A stretch of DNA of 6,101 bases from a candidate division TA06 bacterium SM23_40 (GCA_001303705.1 LJUI01000150.1:1-6101), one strand, 5' to 3'. Positions 1 to 6,101 are shown, counted from the first letter of the stretch. Program-made: numbers and translations. The notes: generated by a model not told the origin, from the sequence alone.

Positions 1-816
1 TCGGCGGGCGGCCGCATACGGGGGTCCCTGGAGAAAATCCCAGACCGCCATCATTTCATCGGCCGAGACGACGGCACAGTCGGCCACGCCCCCAGGCACG
101 TAGTCGACATAGCATTCATTGCTCCAGGGGAGGAGGATGCTCTTTGCATACCAGTACAGAAAGGGGCCCACCTGCTTGGCTGCCCAGTATCCCGCCCGTA
201 CGATGCTCATCCCCGAAATCATCTCATTGCGAGTCACCTCAGGGTGGCCGACCCTCTCGTATACTGCCTCAGCCGTACCGACCGGCACCCACCAGAGAAG
301 ATGCTCCCCGCCTTCGCCCTGCTCCCAATTGCAGAAGACATCGACCCCTGCCTCGATCAGCTCATGGCTCCTCCCATCCTCGGCCATGGCGGCCGCCAGA
401 AAGCCCGGATGCCACGTATCATCCGACAGCCGGTGGGAGAGAACCCCCATGAGGAAGGTCACCTGGCGCCTCTCCGCCTCTGTGTAGGGCGGGGGAAACT
501 CCTGCTTCACGTAGGCCGCGAAGGTGTCGGAGAACATCTCGCTGTGCGTGAGGTCAGCGATATTCTCCATGAGGAGACCATATCCCCAGTCGGGAAACAT
601 CGATCCGGTATCCCTCTCCCCATCCAGCGACAGAAGCATCTCGACAAGTTCGCCATAGCTCAGAGAGTCAATGATGCCCGGGGTGCGCTCCGCGATCTCG
701 CCATGGGTCGTCATCCCACACGCATCGACCTCACACCTGAAGGGACCGACCCAGCAGGCGATGAGAACGGCCGAAAGGACACCGAAACGTATAGGCGTCC
801 CATACAGGCACTTCAT
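1..816 (-). CDS. Exported zinc-dependent phospholipase C / GPI-PLD-like protein, C-terminus beyond window
   Basis: An open frame of 272 codons runs from ATG at 814-816 to the window edge without a stop, so the C-terminus is missing. The start is set by GGAGG at 825-829, 8 bases upstream. Residues 1-21 form a signal peptide; LIAC at 18-21 fits a lipobox, so it may be a lipoprotein, although signal peptidase I cleavage is not excluded. The mature part resembles the zinc-dependent phospholipase C fold at the N-terminus of GPI-specific phospholipase D: CGMTTHGEI (33-41), FPDWGY (74-79), TH (90-91), SHRLSDDTWH (127-136), HELIE (151-155) and WWVPV (175-179). Candidate metal ligands are H38, D76, H91, H128, D132, H136, H151 and E155, matching in order the His/Asp/Glu set of Bacillus cereus phospholipase C, so the enzyme looks intact. 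Inferred role: hydrolysis of phospholipids or related phosphodiesters outside the cytoplasm; the exact substrate and bond cannot be told. It appears to have its own promoter. Confidence 0.9.
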   Translation of the reverse strand, partial: MKCLYGTPIRFGVLSAVLIACWVGPFRCEVDACGMTTHGEIAERTPGIIDSLSYGELVEMLLSLDGERDTGSMFPDWGYGLLMENIADLTHSEMFSDTFAAYVKQEFPPPYTEAERRQVTFLMGVLSHRLSDDTWHPGFLAAAMAEDGRSHELIEAGVDVFCNWEQGEGGEHLLWWVPVGTAEAVYERVGHPEVTRNEMISGMSIVRAGYWAAKQVGPFLYWYAKSILLPWSNECYVDYVPGGVADCAVVSADEMMAVWDFLQGPPYAAARR

Positions 817-864
817 GTGGCTTTCCTCCTTTATGAGTGGCCTCAACGGATCGCGACAACTACC

Positions 865-893
865 AACATACCACAATCCGGCGATCTGATCAA
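865..893 (-). promoter_or_regulatory. Putative sigma-70-type promoter of the phospholipase-like gene
   Basis: Read on the minus strand, TTGATC (888-893) and TATGTT (865-870) are separated by exactly 17 bases. Each box matches four of six consensus positions. Transcription would start near 858, giving a leader of about 40 bases before the ATG at 816. The site lies just downstream of the probable terminator at 915-950, which is where a new transcription unit is expected. The host's promoter consensus is unknown, so this is only a fit to the general bacterial pattern. Confidence 0.4.
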
Positions 894-1110: not shown

Positions 1111-2577
1111 CTACCGCACCAGAAGCATGCGCCTTGTCTCGTTGACCTCGCCCGCTTCCATACGGCAGAAGTAGATCCCGCTCCCCACCTTGTACCCCCG
1201 GTCGTCCCGCCCATCCCACTCCAGCTCATGCGGGCCCGCAGGGACAGAATTCGAGACCAACGAGCGGACACGTGCGCCCCGGATATCATACAGCACAACA
1301 GTCACGTGCCCCGCCTCGGGAAGAGCATAGCGGATCGTGGTCTTCGCACGAAACGGGTTCGGATAGTTCTGGGCAAGATAAGACGAGCGCGGCCGGGGAG
1401 GCTCATCCACCTCCCCACTCACCCCGACAAGGCCTTCGGCGTTTGTCTTGATGAGATAGACGTCCGAACCGCTAACACCGAACGATTCCGTGTATCCTGC
1501 GACGATGTACCCCCCGTCGGCCGTCTGGGCGACGGCCTGGCCCTCGTCATACTCCAGCTCCCCATACGTGCGTGTCCAGAGCGTATCGCCACTGGCGTCT
1601 GTCTTGATCAAATACAGATCACCGATGCCGCTGGCGGACGGTTCCACGTATCCGGTGACGATGTATCCTCCATCGAACGTCTGGGCAACCGAAAACCCCT
1701 CATCATAGTACTGGCCGCCGTACGTGCGTGTCCACAGTGTATCGCCATCCCCGTCTGTCCTCACAAGATAGAAATCCCATCCGCCTGCACCGAATGACTG
1801 AGTCTCTCCCCCGATGATGTAGCCACCATCGACCGTCTGCGCAACCGAATGGCCGAAATCCTGATCTGAACCGCCGTGGGCACGCGTCCACAGCGTATCC
1901 CCGCTCGCGTCTGTCTTGATCAGATAGACATCGGACTCGCCTGCCCCGAACGAGCGAGTATACCCGGCGATGATGTATCCCCCGTCCGCCGTCTGCGCGA
2001 CTGAGCTGCCCCTGTCGGAACCCGAGCCCCCGTAGGTGCGGGTCCACAGCGTATCCCCATCGCCGTCGGTCTTCACGACGTAGACATCCGTTACTCCGGC
2101 ACCAAATGAATAGGTGTAGCCTGCAACGATGTATCCCCCATCATCCGTCTGCGCCACCGAGCTACCTCCATCGTGGTCTGTGCCGCCGTACGTGCGTGTC
2201 CACACCGTGTCGCCCGCCCCATCAGTCTTCACCAGATATATGTCATTGCCCCCATGGCCGAAGGAAGTAGTGCCTCCGACAACGACGAACCCTCCGTCGT
2301 CCGTCTGGTCCAGCGAATAGCACGACTCCGAGGCCGGCCCGCCGTACGCGTTCCACCACAGCGGGTCGCCCCATTCATCTGTTCTGATCAGATAGGCATC
2401 CTGTGAGCCCGCACCGAACGAGTAGGTCCATCCAGCGATGGCGTATCCACCGTCACTTGTCTGCCGGACTGAATACGCTCCATCCCAGTCGGCACCGCCG
2501 TAGGTGTACTCAAACATGATCTGGGCGCCAGCGGTCAGCGGCACCAGTAACGCCAGCACAAACATCAATGTTCTCAT
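1111..2577 (-). CDS. Secreted seven-repeat probable beta-propeller protein with FlgD-Ig/T9SS-like C-terminal sorting tail
   Basis: The protein has 488 residues. The start is ATG at 2575-2577, preceded by GAGGAG at 2584-2589 and opening with a signal peptide (MRTLMFVLALLVPLTAGA, cut probably after A18). An in-frame extension to 2637 lacks a signal and is rejected. Residues 26-382 are seven consecutive 52-residue units (the last about 45), pattern YGG...D.G.SV.QT.DGGYI.AGYT.SFGAG..D.YLIKTD..GDTLWTRT. A linker (383-398, VDEPPRPR) leads to an Ig-like tail: YPNPF at 405-409, LYDIRG at 429-434, WDGRD at 454-458, SGIYF at 466-470 and a basic end. Such tails belong to the FlgD-Ig / type IX secretion sorting group and direct export or surface attachment. 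Seven four-stranded units suggest a propeller. No catalytic motif is visible; binding or scaffolding at the cell surface is inference. The gene follows the membrane cassette after 87 bases, with no clear promoter or terminator between. Confidence 0.93.
   Translation of the reverse strand: MRTLMFVLALLVPLTAGAQIMFEYTYGGADWDGAYSVRQTSDGGYAIAGWTYSFGAGSQDAYLIRTDEWGDPLWWNAYGGPASESCYSLDQTDDGGFVVVGGTTSFGHGGNDIYLVKTDGAGDTVWTRTYGGTDHDGGSSVAQTDDGGYIVAGYTYSFGAGVTDVYVVKTDGDGDTLWTRTYGGSGSDRGSSVAQTADGGYIIAGYTRSFGAGESDVYLIKTDASGDTLWTRAHGGSDQDFGHSVAQTVDGGYIIGGETQSFGAGGWDFYLVRTDGDGDTLWTRTYGGQYYDEGFSVAQTFDGGYIVTGYVEPSASGIGDLYLIKTDASGDTLWTRTYGELEYDEGQAVAQTADGGYIVAGYTESFGVSGSDVYLIKTNAEGLVGVSGEVDEPPRPRSSYLAQNYPNPFRAKTTIRYALPEAGHVTVVLYDIRGARVRSLVSNSVPAGPHELEWDGRDDRGYKVGSGIYFCRMEAGEVNETRRMLLVR
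1432..2502 (-). repeat. Seven tandem 156-bp coding repeats (52-residue units)
   Basis: Units start with the YGG (or HGG/YGE) codons at 2502, 2346, 2190, 2034, 1878, 1722 and 1566. The first six are exactly 156 bp with no insertion or deletion; the seventh keeps about 135 bp. Units 3 to 7 are closest to each other, while unit 1 (EWGDPLWWNA) and unit 2 (PASESCYSLDQ) have diverged most. Unit 6 replaces the usual YT.SFGAG with YVEPSASG. DNA similarity is still obvious around the QT.DGGYI codons, so duplications are fairly recent or kept similar by recombination, and copy number could vary between strains. Confidence 0.95.
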
Positions 2578-2583
2578 GATGAT

Positions 2584-2589
2584 CTCCTC
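2584..2589 (-). promoter_or_regulatory. Ribosome binding site that fixes the repeat-protein start
   Basis: GAGGAG on the minus strand lies 6 bases before ATG 2575-2577. This supports the start that begins directly with the signal peptide rather than any alternative start farther upstream, which would put about 20 polar residues in front of it. Confidence 0.8.
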
Positions 2590-2664
2590 TCTCAGTTGAC
2601 GCTTCACGCGGGGTGAGTAACCTTCTGAACCTACCAACGTCCCCGAGGAGGGGTATCGGTTTCC

Positions 2665-3285
2665 CTAGCGGAGGTGGAGCCAGTCGTAGAACAGGAACTG
2701 GAATCTTCCGATGAGGAGCGAGATACGGGCCATCACCGTGTACCCGAAGGAGGCGCCGAATGAGATCATCAGGAAGTAGATGCCCAGGCGTGCCACTCCA
2801 CCGAGGGCACCCTTGTGTTCTCGGGAGAAGAAGAAGTAGACGAGCACAGAGAGGACGCCGACCACAACCAGGATGTTGACGATCGAGGCCCCGACGTTGC
2901 CGGTCCAGATGGGCACGAGCGTGGCCCTGAGCTGGGCAACGAGCATCGCCTGCACGGTGGCGGGGATGACGACGCCGACGCCCATGCCGATATAGAAGGC
3001 GAGCGCCCAGCGCGACAGCCAGACAACGCGCGGGATGAGGCGGGTGAAGATGAGCAGTCCGAGGATGCCCGGGATAATGTACAGCCAGCGGTGATCGCGC
3101 ACCAGGCGATCGATGAGATTGGGGACGATCGCATTGTTATAGTAGTAGACCATCCAGTATGCGGCGGACACGCCCACATAGAGATGCTCAGCAAACTTGT
3201 ACACCGGATTGTCCTTGTACAGAAAGCTCAGGATGGCGAGCGTCAGAAAGGCGGCAATCCATGTGCTGAGGATGGTCAAATCCAT
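2665..3285 (-). CDS. Six-helix integral membrane protein of unknown function (cassette gene D)
   Basis: The protein has 206 residues, starting at ATG 3283-3285 with GGGAG at 3296-3300, 10 bases upstream. I do not recognise a named family. Hydrophobic segments lie near residues 3-23, 33-50, 67-84, 91-115, 134-153 and 164-190, so six spans are likely. Basic residues cluster after the third helix (R82, R86, R92) and around 155-166 (REHK...R). The third helix is preceded by a charged stretch (DRLVRDHR, 59-66). The C-terminus (GYTVMARISLLIGRFQFL) ends in a short aromatic DWLHLR. There are no soluble domains or catalytic motifs. It follows gene C after 111 bases and is probably the last gene of the membrane cassette. 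Its size and helix count match gene B, but I see no convincing sequence identity between them. Role as channel, transporter subunit or complex scaffold is open. Confidence 0.92.
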   Translation of the reverse strand: MDLTILSTWIAAFLTLAILSFLYKDNPVYKFAEHLYVGVSAAYWMVYYYNNAIVPNLIDRLVRDHRWLYIIPGILGLLIFTRLIPRVVWLSRWALAFYIGMGVGVVIPATVQAMLVAQLRATLVPIWTGNVGASIVNILVVVGVLSVLVYFFFSREHKGALGGVARLGIYFLMISFGASFGYTVMARISLLIGRFQFLFYDWLHLR

Positions 3286-3352
3286 TACCGTCTTACTCCC
3301 TGTCGATTCACGGGTGCCCTGTGCCTCATCTGATCATTCTCCGTTCCATCCG

Positions 3353-3373
3353 CAGGCCTCCCGGAGAGGCCTG
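3353..3373. other. Perfect 8-bp hairpin between cassette genes C and D
   Basis: CAGGCCTC (3353-3360) and GAGGCCTG (3366-3373) are perfect inverted repeats around a 5-base loop. On the minus-strand transcript no T tract follows (CGGATGGAAC comes next), so this is not a standard terminator. It could be an attenuator, a Rho-linked pause or an mRNA stability element separating gene D from gene C in the widest gap of the cluster. Confidence 0.5.
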
Positions 3374-3396
3374 AACCTGCTCATGCTGACTCAGCA

Positions 3397-4260
3397 TCAG
3401 GCGCCCGGGGAGCGCCGGCGAACGATGAAATACGATATGTTCGCCACAATGATGAACGCCATGATGACGAGGTGCGCCAACGACTGGGCGGTCATTCCCG
3501 CAGTCGCAGACCCGGGCGCGCCGATGAGCGCTTCATATTCGGACGAACCCTTCAGTCCGCCCAAGAGGCCGAAGAGCTGTCCGGAGTCGTAATATGGATA
3601 GTATTGCGATGTCATCACTCCCGTGGCACAGAGTCCGACCCTCAACCCGAACCGCGCGCCCGCGTAAGCGATCCAGTAGTCCGGGGAGACCCCGTGCGCG
3701 AAGTCGACTGCCAGCGCGACGTCATCCAACCGGTGCACCTCGTGCATGAGCGGGAGCTCTTCGACCGACGTATCATAGTGATCTCGGGGATACGGATCCC
3801 ATATTTCCTTTCCCATCATAAGGAGGGCGACGGTCATCCCGGTCTTATACCCCAGGTTGACGTAGTCGACACCGTACTCCTTATCGTACTCTTCTGCCGC
3901 GATCTGGAGTGCGCGCTCCCCGATCGGGATCCCGGGGGCGATATAGCCGAGCGCCACAACACGCAGTCCCTTTGAGAACACGTGCCGGGCGATGGCCAGG
4001 TATGCCGGGTACAGCTCCGGCTCCGAGGTCGGATCGAAATCGATCGCCATTATAATGACCGAACCAGGCGGAAGTTCGTCGATCGCATCATAGAGATCCT
4101 GCACTGGCGGGCTCACGAGCACCGGCAATGTGATCGGGTAGAGGACCGGTACCGCGACGACCACGCCGATGATGACAAAAATGATCCGCCGGTCGATCGC
4201 TGTCAGCCTCTCAAGAATCCCCTGTTTCTGTCTCGGCTCCTGTGCAGTGCCGTACTCCAT
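3397..4260 (-). CDS. Membrane-anchored alpha/beta-domain protein of unknown function (cassette gene C)
   Basis: The protein has 287 residues, from ATG 4258-4260 (GAGGG at 4269-4273, 8 bases upstream) to TGA at 3397-3399. A short basic N-terminus (RQK, RR) precedes a membrane helix near 25-48. A soluble region spans about 52-257, then comes a second helix near 261-280 and a final RRRSPGA. The soluble part alternates hydrophobic strands and helices like a Rossmann-type fold: GSVIIMAIDFDP (66-77), GLRVVALGYI (98-107), DDVALAVDF (179-187), GLRVGLCATG (205-214). Just before the second helix is GLLGGLKGSSEYEALIG, which parallels a stretch at the same place in gene A. No nucleotide-binding loop or catalytic triad is clear. 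By the positive-inside rule both ends are cytoplasmic and the alpha/beta domain faces outward. It lies between two multi-span proteins, suggesting a complex subunit. No named family is recognised with certainty. Confidence 0.92.
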   Translation of the reverse strand: MEYGTAQEPRQKQGILERLTAIDRRIIFVIIGVVVAVPVLYPITLPVLVSPPVQDLYDAIDELPPGSVIIMAIDFDPTSEPELYPAYLAIARHVFSKGLRVVALGYIAPGIPIGERALQIAAEEYDKEYGVDYVNLGYKTGMTVALLMMGKEIWDPYPRDHYDTSVEELPLMHEVHRLDDVALAVDFAHGVSPDYWIAYAGARFGLRVGLCATGVMTSQYYPYYDSGQLFGLLGGLKGSSEYEALIGAPGSATAGMTAQSLAHLVIMAFIIVANISYFIVRRRSPGA

Positions 4261-4315
4261 ACCGAGAACCCTCTACTGTGAAGATCTCACGCCAGTCTTG
4301 CCTGACTGCACGCGC

Positions 4316-4939
4316 CTAGCCCTCTCCGCCGAAGTACCCACGCTCGACCCCAACGAGCATCCGGAGGGCCGTGGCGATGGCGCCGAGCGAGGCGCCCATT
4401 AGGATCCCCCGCTGCGCGGCCATGTTGGGATAGCTCATGATCCAGTCAGTGATGACGGGAATGCGGTGCCAGATCATGTCGCCGATCGGTATCCGACCGA
4501 GCATCACGATGAGGCCAGCGGCAAGCAGGAGGGCAGCCTCTCTGGTTCGCGCCCGAAACGCCCGGTACGCGGCTGACGATATGAAGAAGGCGAGCAGCGC
4601 GAACATCGTCGCCTGCAGGGGCCTCATCATGCTCTCATAGATGAACATGAACGGCGTCCCGGCCCTCACCCCCCAGGCGAGCCCGGTCACGAGCGTCGTG
4701 AGAAATGCGACGAGGAGCACAACCTTGTATCCCCAGTCGCGCTCCTTCCTCCTTACTTTCTTTGCATTGACGATGAACAGATTGAGACCGCTCAGGAACA
4801 GGGCACACGTCCACACGACCAGGTCCCATTCGAGGAGAACCTGGGAGGTATCCTGGACCCGCCGGTGCGGCACGAAGAAGACGGCCAGCATGAAGATGCC
4901 GGAGGCAAAGACGATGGTCAGCGGAACCGTCTTGCGCAC
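4316..4939 (-). CDS. Six-helix integral membrane protein of unknown function (cassette gene B)
   Basis: The protein has 207 residues. The start is GTG at 4937-4939, with GAGGGAG at 4948-4954 ending 8 bases upstream; an in-frame TGA at 4964-4966 rules out a longer form. Hydrophobic segments lie near residues 5-23, 38-58, 71-90, 105-125, 134-150 and 177-196. The loop after helix 2 is strongly basic (NAKKVRRKERDWGYK, 58-72), as is the loop after helix 4 (YRAFRARTR, 125-133), so both should be cytoplasmic. The region between helices 5 and 6 holds GRIPIGDMIWHRIP (148-161) and MSYPNMAAQRG (168-178), rich in Pro, Trp and His and a likely functional or partner-contact segment. I recognise no family. 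It starts 57 bases after gene A and ends 55 bases before gene C, which supports co-transcription. Confidence 0.92.
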   Translation of the reverse strand: MRKTVPLTIVFASGIFMLAVFFVPHRRVQDTSQVLLEWDLVVWTCALFLSGLNLFIVNAKKVRRKERDWGYKVVLLVAFLTTLVTGLAWGVRAGTPFMFIYESMMRPLQATMFALLAFFISSAAYRAFRARTREAALLLAAGLIVMLGRIPIGDMIWHRIPVITDWIMSYPNMAAQRGILMGASLGAIATALRMLVGVERGYFGGEG

Positions 4940-4947
4940 AGCTGCTA

Positions 4948-4954
4948 CTCCCTC
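4948..4954 (-). promoter_or_regulatory. Ribosome binding site supporting the GTG start of cassette gene B
   Basis: GAGGGAG on the minus strand ends 8 bases before GTG 4937-4939. No upstream ATG is available in frame before the TGA at 4964-4966, so this site makes the GTG the preferred start; the first downstream ATG (M17) would remove helix 1. Confidence 0.75.
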
Positions 4955-4996
4955 AGGTCCACCTCACATACTCGTGTGTTGATGAAACAGACACCG

Positions 4997-6101
4997 CTAT
5001 CGCACCGTCAACCAGGTCGTCAGATTCGTGATCCCGAGCGTTTCGAGAACAACGCCCATGATGATGAGGATCATGATGAGGAGTTTCCCCGAGTCCTGCC
5101 CCTTCGTGGAGGCGACGAGCATCGGCTCCCGCGACAAATATGCTGAGGCTGCGTACAGCTCCTCCCCGATCAGCGTATAGTCACAGGCAGTGACGAAGAA
5201 CGGGAGCTGGGCCAGCTCTGCCGTCCCTGCGATCTGGATCGCCCCGGTCGAGTACCCCGTCTCAGCGAGAATGAGAGACTCTGCCATGAAGTACCCGAGA
5301 AGGAAGATCGCTCCGGGCCGCTCGCGCTGCATGATCCCGTCGACACCCGCCGCAAACCCGAACTGGTCGCTCGTAAGGAACCGCACGCTCTCCGGGTTGA
5401 ATGCATCAGGACGGCCGGCATCGACGTACGACCCCTGGACCACCTCCTGAGCCACGGTGAAGACGATCGGATCATAGTTGGGCATGACGAGGGCGGTGTC
5501 GTACTCCGCTGCCCTCCGTGCCACCCGCCGCAGGATCGACACACTGGCGATCGTCTGCGGGTAGCTCATGTCGCCGATCCCGGGCACAAAAAGGATCGGG
5601 CGGCCCATCTCTGTGGCACGCCCGATCGCCTCATCTACGGCGTTCAGCCCCGCGATTCTCCGGATGAAGAGATCGATCCCTCTGGTCGCCTTCCATACGA
5701 AATAGAACAGGATGATTGAGAAGAGAGCGATCGGAATCAGAATATTGACCCGGCCGGTATGAAACCAGTTGGAGGCAGGAGTGACCGGCCCCACAACCTC
5801 GGAGTCGGCAGAGCGTATACCGTCCGTGGCCTGGACGATATAGAAGTAGCGCAGGGTATCGCTCACATCCGTGTCCATGAACCGATCGGTCCCTGCGCCA
5901 ACTGATCTGACTTCCTCAAACGGCCCTGCCGCATCCGTTGCCCGCAGGATGCGATACACCGTGACCAACTGGGCGCGTTCTCCATCATCGAGCGAGAGTT
6001 GCCAAGTGAGGGAGAGTGCCGATCCATCGTCGTTCGGCTGATCCTCGGCCCGGACCGATCGCGGCGGCGCAAGGCCTGCCTCCTGGGTCTTCGCCGAGCC
6101 T
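4997..6101 (-). CDS. FN3 / DUF6754-like membrane protein, N-terminus beyond window (cassette gene A)
   Basis: The frame is open from the window edge to TAG at 4997-4999 and gives 367 residues (numbered from the edge). The true start and any signal peptide lie beyond 6101; the TTG at 5966-5968 is internal. Residues 11-106 look like a fibronectin type III domain: APPRSVRAEDQ, the SLTWQL strand, VTVYRILRAT, then FMDTDVSDTLRYFYIVQATDG split over 74-94. A membrane helix lies at about 118-137, followed by basic residues (K137, R140, R147, R148). An alpha/beta region of about 155-335 includes GRPILFVPGIGDMSYP (166-181), DTALVMPNYDP (201-211), GAIFLLGYFMAES (263-275) and GAIQIAGTAEL (286-296). A second helix is near 338-356. 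From memory this architecture resembles the DUF6754 group, whose function is unknown; that match is not certain. The basic residues after the first helix place the alpha/beta domain in the cytoplasm and FN3 outside. It is the first visible gene of the cassette. Confidence 0.88.
   Translation of the reverse strand, partial: GSAKTQEAGLAPPRSVRAEDQPNDDGSALSLTWQLSLDDGERAQLVTVYRILRATDAAGPFEEVRSVGAGTDRFMDTDVSDTLRYFYIVQATDGIRSADSEVVGPVTPASNWFHTGRVNILIPIALFSIILFYFVWKATRGIDLFIRRIAGLNAVDEAIGRATEMGRPILFVPGIGDMSYPQTIASVSILRRVARRAAEYDTALVMPNYDPIVFTVAQEVVQGSYVDAGRPDAFNPESVRFLTSDQFGFAAGVDGIMQRERPGAIFLLGYFMAESLILAETGYSTGAIQIAGTAELAQLPFFVTACDYTLIGEELYAASAYLSREPMLVASTKGQDSGKLLIMILIIMGVVLETLGITNLTTWLTVR

Follow-up and report, generated by a model that had tools for sequence, protein, structure and literature searches.

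The four successive membrane protein genes on a contig of the candidate division TA06 bacterium SM23_40 belong to a conserved operon, A-B-C-D, which recurs across phyla. Clustering of the neighboring genes revealed recurrent partners of this cassette, an ASKHA protein of the MutL/GlmL type (MutL) and a 374 aa protein (c0), which are accompanied by a small helical protein (S). We tentatively propose that A to D form one inner-membrane complex working with one cytosolic MutL-c0-S module, and an ATP-dependent task at the envelope is favored over the other options.

The window, the stretch of 6,101 nucleotides that was analyzed, is the whole of contig C119 from a genome of 2.88 Mb in 189 contigs, which was the sole member of its phylum among the genomes searched. 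Four successive open reading frames on the minus strand were confirmed:

4997-6100, minus strand: gene A, FN3 domain, transmembrane (TM) helix, DUF6754 alpha/beta domain and second TM helix (PF20539, FN3 by sequence and structure, AlphaFold2)
5765-6082, minus strand: FN3 domain of A, residues 7-112, predicted to be extracytoplasmic (VIA and profile match to titin FN3)
5015-5776, minus strand: DUF6754 region of A with its flanking TM helices, six-stranded alpha/beta domain predicted to be cytosolic (Pfam, AlphaFold2, charge)
4316-4939, minus strand: gene B, six-TM protein of 207 aa with a GTG start, both termini predicted inside (hydropathy, charge)
3397-4260, minus strand: gene C, 287 aa, TM helix, six-stranded Rossmann-like domain and second TM helix, domain predicted outside (AlphaFold2, charge)
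2665-3285, minus strand: gene D, protein of 206 aa with about six TM segments and a conserved FGASFGYTVMARISLLIGR motif (hydropathy, alignment)

The genes are spaced by 57 bp (A-B), 55 bp (B-C) and 111 bp (C-D). Gene A is open at its 5' end, where the end of the contig removes its signal peptide. Hydropathy over alignments of 57-78 relatives gave six TM segments for B, about six for D, and one on either side of the alpha/beta domain in both A and C. These results agree with the first-pass annotation, which had described four consecutive minus-strand membrane protein genes with the large-domain proteins A and C alternating with the six-helix proteins B (207 aa) and D (206 aa). It had omitted the N-terminal FN3 domain of A and the known Pfam identity of its alpha/beta domain (DUF6754), and it missed MutL, c0 and S because these genes are not in the window. 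Directly after D, the window encodes a beta-propeller (DUF5122/delta-60 repeat) surface protein with an FlgD-like/type IX sorting-like C-terminal domain (1111-2637, minus strand). The reading frame at 1-876 (minus strand) is cut by the contig end and showed a weak match, barely over the cut-off, to zinc-dependent phospholipase C (PF00882).

Scanning of named genomes for the cassette gave at least 565 matches, and we compared the 79 best loci together with the window and two sister contigs (82 loci). Gene neighborhoods across phyla, a check proposed in the first-pass annotation, were conserved: complete A-B-C-D was present at 71 of these 82 loci, with 100 cassettes and up to three in tandem. 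The pairs A-B, B-C and C-D were adjacent 109, 103 and 100 times in the same set, with median gaps of 3, -1 and -1 bp. Carriers among the best 79 loci included WOR-3/Stahlbacteria, TA06, Zixibacteria, Latescibacterota, Poribacteria, Coatesbacteria, Edwardsbacteria, Fermentibacteria, Eisenbacteria, CSSED10-310 and others. Since the four frames are kept as proteins in the same order at the 71 loci and in five cassettes of the window's genome, chance can be excluded.

Gene A is present six times in the window's genome, and B, C and D five times each. Contig C183 reads A-B-C-D, A, A-B-C-D, A-B-C-D in coding order, with the final D cut by the contig end. Upstream of this array lies a surface protein gene similar to the beta-propeller gene of the window (L009:12331-13797). 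On contig C133 (L010:6461-9494) the cassette has the order A-B-D-C. Two successive A genes precede one B-C-D set at L009:5694-8376 and at L073:1643-4226, and solitary DUF6754 genes with no adjacent B, C or D were found at L047 and L074. An apparent fusion of A to a signal peptide peptidase (S49) at L083:9806-12190 was rejected, as the two genes are bridged by a stretch of N in the scaffold.

Correlation of pairwise distances among the four proteins gave coefficients of 0.73-0.85. Shuffling of paralogs within loci lowered all six correlations, to 0.59-0.69; the A-B correlation was 0.815, compared with a mean of 0.642 and a maximum of 0.725 in 200 shuffles. We concluded from this decrease that the cassettes evolve as units. 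Among 41 genomes, an identical group of 12 carried A, C and D, and B was found in these 12 and, with a marginal match, in one further genome. DUF6754 was present in 62 of 241 sampled genomes, about a quarter, across some 50 families, and the system was absent from all 14 well-known control genomes. The near-perfect co-occurrence and the co-evolution fit one hetero-oligomeric complex, as suggested in the first-pass annotation, better than the two related pairs that it had offered as the other option, and we infer such a physical complex from the genomic context.

Protein A is a full member of PF20539 (DUF6754), a Pfam family with no assigned function (E 4e-116, 387 bits against a cut-off of 27, profile positions 2-255 of 257). 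The AlphaFold2 model of A was confident (pLDDT 94, 68 aligned sequences) and comprised the FN3 domain, a TM helix at 115-139, a six-stranded alpha/beta domain and a TM helix from 326. Both the sequence profile, with a match to titin FN3, and the beta-sandwich fold, with a VIA Z of 13.3 to FN3 domains (rmsd 2.0, 95 aligned), placed the N-terminal domain in the FN3 family. This domain is optional: it is absent from a relative in a single-contig genome and present in several copies in another relative. FN3 rows filled the fold-search match lists for A, which hardly probed the DUF6754 fold. Among the invariant residues of A are G174, P207, Q246, G269, E274, T293, Q298 and G312-E313-E314, which lie just after strand ends and likely form a pocket; the enrichment of conserved residues after strands was modest (13 of 42 positions compared with 23 of 96 elsewhere).

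For the window's B, C and D, profile searches yielded no Pfam or NCBIfam family above the cut-off; their relatives matched none consistently, and none of the three had a sequence relative in the PDB. The model of C was confident (pLDDT 95, 78 aligned sequences), with a TM helix at 24-40, a six-stranded alpha/beta domain and a TM helix at 251-283. Conserved residues after strand ends were enriched more clearly in C than in A (15 of 42 compared with 20 of 119 elsewhere). Foldseek searches with C against the PDB and viral models returned nothing below E 0.001. By VIA, the nearest solved fold was 1kjn, an uncharacterized archaeal protein (Z 9.6, rmsd 4.0, 140 aligned), followed by CdhB (Z 9.3, rmsd 3.2, 146 aligned), with many unrelated Rossmann proteins close behind, and domain III of transhydrogenase (Z 7.9, rmsd 3.8, 143 aligned); these Z values are barely above the level that the tool gives for common arrangements, and the rows are generic Rossmann-like.

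The matches of C to CdhB and to transhydrogenase domain III would be in line with a redox or proton-translocating enzyme with a DHS-like/Rossmann C, as would the similarity of c0 to the N-terminal domain of RnfC. The barrel-sandwich-like c0 resembles RnfC_N over residues ~69-116, with E values from 2e-5 in one relative to 0.0075, all below the cut-off. However, the domain of C is predicted to be extracytoplasmic, conserved Cys/His sets were not found, GxGxxG was not conserved over the alignment of A, and the Z values of C hardly exceed the common-arrangement level. We consider a redox enzyme very improbable.

The AlphaFold2 models of A and C have an identical predicted order of secondary structure elements, TM-alpha(beta-alpha)6-TM. 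Profile-profile comparison, which would reveal an ancient duplication, gave no match between A and C, with or without secondary structure, and none between B and D. From the earlier proposal of two related pairs, the common build of A and C was supported and sequence kinship was not detected. Charge counts over the alignments placed the domain of A and the two termini of B inside and the domain of C outside; for D they weakly suggested an outside N terminus. By the positive-inside rule, the alpha/beta domains of A and C are thus probably located on opposite sides of the membrane.

In line with the receptor/channel-like pairs suggested in the first-pass annotation, ABCD could also be a receptor or a gated channel that is not driven by ATP, in which FN3 and the outer domain of C would bind a ligand, B and D would transmit or conduct, and the inner domain of A would report. 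The varying number of FN3 domains, from none to several, would fit variable recognition, and many paralogs per genome as well as a weak, sub-threshold similarity of B to 7TMR-DISM point in the same direction. None of A to D carries a signaling output domain, however, and a receptor would leave unexplained why c0 and MutL co-occur with the cassette almost perfectly, so that we regard it as unlikely. Assignment of B itself as a 7TMR-DISM sensor (PF07695) was rejected because the score was below the cut-off (14.3 bits compared with 29) and B has six TM segments instead of the seven required.

Ten named loci and several further genomes carry the whole block S-MutL-c0-A-B-C-D; in genome G008 the order is S-A-B-C-D-MutL-c0 on a single strand. 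In the window's genome, S, MutL and c0 are located outside the window on contig C72, where GcvPB-S-MutL-c0 runs off the contig end and may continue into a cassette whose A is cut. The c0 gene was present in 58 of the 62 DUF6754-containing genomes, and all 179 genomes lacking DUF6754 also lacked c0 (241 genomes, Fisher p 1.6e-51, a value that overstates independence as the genomes are related to varying degrees, though most are from different families). In the 41-genome set, MutL was above the cut-off in all but one of the 12 genomes that carry A and also in G031, where the frame has only 503 aa. MutL and full-length c0 were essentially single-copy in this set, while A reached 6-7 copies in some genomes. 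These copy numbers suggest that one shared cytosolic module may serve several membrane modules. The parts are not strictly inseparable, since four A-containing genomes lack c0 and A is solitary at L047 and L074.

GcvPA/GcvPB genes were observed upstream of S-MutL-c0-ABCD at L110 (C72), L127, L120, L058, L077, L078, L094, L100 and L107; GcvPB was confirmed on C72 and both genes on L127.

Away from ABCD, MutL and a c0-like domain are joined in one chain of ~950-1015 aa in four genomes, which supports that MutL and c0 act together:

L121:3322-6168, L122:4881-7925, L123:897-3932 and L124:5135-8089: MutL-c0 fusions

The fusion at L122 also bears an N-terminal helix-turn-helix, and the genes next to the fusions vary (radical SAM, DAHP synthase, peptidase M3).

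The partner MutL matched PF13941 over its full length (E 2e-123, 412.7 bits, profile 1-450). The ATP-binding motifs DCGSTTTK and DIGGATTD were intact in all 11 MutL relatives checked and were also visible in the C72 protein. Proteins of this type are best known as enzyme reactivators. As in the case of glutamate mutase, MutL could use ATP to reactivate an enzyme of the corrinoid or radical type, with ABCD handling the cofactor or substrate. Matches of MutL to the GlmL and Or-4 models, below their cut-offs, are consistent with such a role, as are the GcvPA/GcvPB genes upstream of S-MutL-c0 in several lineages, with GcvPB in the window's genome. This role is nevertheless quite unlikely: the B12 motif DxHxxG and CxxC were not conserved in A to D or c0, and no mutase was among the first 25 of the 85 immediate-neighbor families listed.

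Other constant neighbors were not found, the flanking genes being mostly unrelated housekeeping genes or genes for TPR proteins. Genes for ExbB/TolQ, ExbD/TolR, TonB and large outer-membrane receptors lie a few genes past the cassette at L031, L033, L034, L035, L041, L058, L077 and L094. In the Stahlbacteria/WOR-3 loci L031, L033, L034, L035 and L041, paired genes, one of them for a DUF4388 protein, and genes for small membrane proteins directly follow D.

PilM and GspL have actin-like folds and act as cytosolic scaffolds. By analogy, the ASKHA protein could organize ABCD as an inner-membrane platform for envelope building or secretion. The seven-gene operon indeed joins one ASKHA protein to membrane proteins, TonB system and outer-membrane receptor genes are found near cassettes in several lineages, and, of the three contigs with cassettes in the window's genome, two have genes for surface proteins with type IX sorting-like tails alongside. 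Yet the TonB and surface protein neighbors vary between loci, and Pfam, NCBIfam and profile searches revealed no homology to known secretion or pilus parts; a scaffolded platform of this kind appears doubtful.

The task of ABCD is most likely to move or process something at the envelope, by transport, export or envelope assembly. In the ATP-dependent complex that we prefer, B and D would form the membrane core, the Rossmann-like domain of C would sit outside, and the DUF6754 domain of A would lie inside with its FN3 domains reaching out. The cytosolic module would consist of the MutL/GlmL-like ASKHA ATPase, the barrel-sandwich-like c0 and the small S. Binding or hydrolysis of ATP by MutL-c0 may energize or assemble the membrane part. 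One such module would serve 1-7 paralogous ABCD modules differing in specificity. That MutL-family ASKHA proteins are best known as enzyme reactivators and not as transport motors counts against this model. With somewhat more reserve, we suggest a new class of energized machine, in which a MutL-type ASKHA ATPase with a c0 adaptor and S might drive interchangeable four-subunit modules with one Rossmann-like domain on each side of the inner membrane. Such a machine would be in use in a large share of uncultured bacterial phyla and is not known from model organisms.

Given how widespread it is and how often it is duplicated, the system probably matters to the envelope or energy economy of the carrier phyla, and its seven-gene membrane operon now offers a well-defined target for tests. 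Powering of membrane complexes would be a new role for ASKHA ATPases, should MutL drive ABCD.

The first-pass annotation had linked this layout to no known complex and had named scattered homologs or a clear match to a known complex as evidence against a system. The neighborhoods proved to be shared, and Pfam, NCBIfam, PADLOC and profile searches matched no known complex. To our knowledge, no known system combines ABCD, MutL, c0 and S. DUF6754, PF20539 and PF13941 were not named in the open-access full text searched, and no curated family covers B, C, D, c0 or S. Judged by open-access full text and profile libraries, the system appears to be undescribed, with one component already catalogued as a DUF. 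An anti-phage defense system was rejected, as A to D had no PADLOC match, and so was a B12 or iron-sulfur protein, as no conserved motifs were found in A to D or c0.

Besides DUF6754, a close known relative of a component is the MutL/GlmL family (PF13941; TIGR01319) of ASKHA proteins accessory to B12 mutases. The partner MutL covers the whole PF13941 model; it differs from this family in a C-terminal extension of about 120 aa and in being encoded with ABCD. It was not accepted as GlmL, since two relatives (L045, L127) reached only 226.6 and 230.5 bits against NF040745, compared with the 475 required, and MutL relatives were also below the Or-4 and glmL_fam cut-offs of NCBIfam. The c0 protein resembles the N-terminal barrel-sandwich domain of RnfC/NqrA but has no conserved cysteines by the alignment motif check; it was rejected as RnfC for this reason and for its RnfC_N score of 24.8 bits compared with 25.6. 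In type IV pilus and type II secretion systems, a PilM/GspL-type ASKHA scaffold is encoded with an inner-membrane platform. The present system likewise unites an ASKHA protein with an inner-membrane platform, but A to D have no Pfam match to pilus or secretion platform proteins. An ECF transporter was rejected, as A to D, c0, S and MutL had no ABC ATPase match and Walker A was not conserved, and a TonB-ExbB-ExbD energizer was rejected, as A to D and their relatives have no homology to ExbB, ExbD or TonB. ECF transporters and TonB-ExbBD are alike to the present system in logic only, with one shared energizer for several paralogous client modules.
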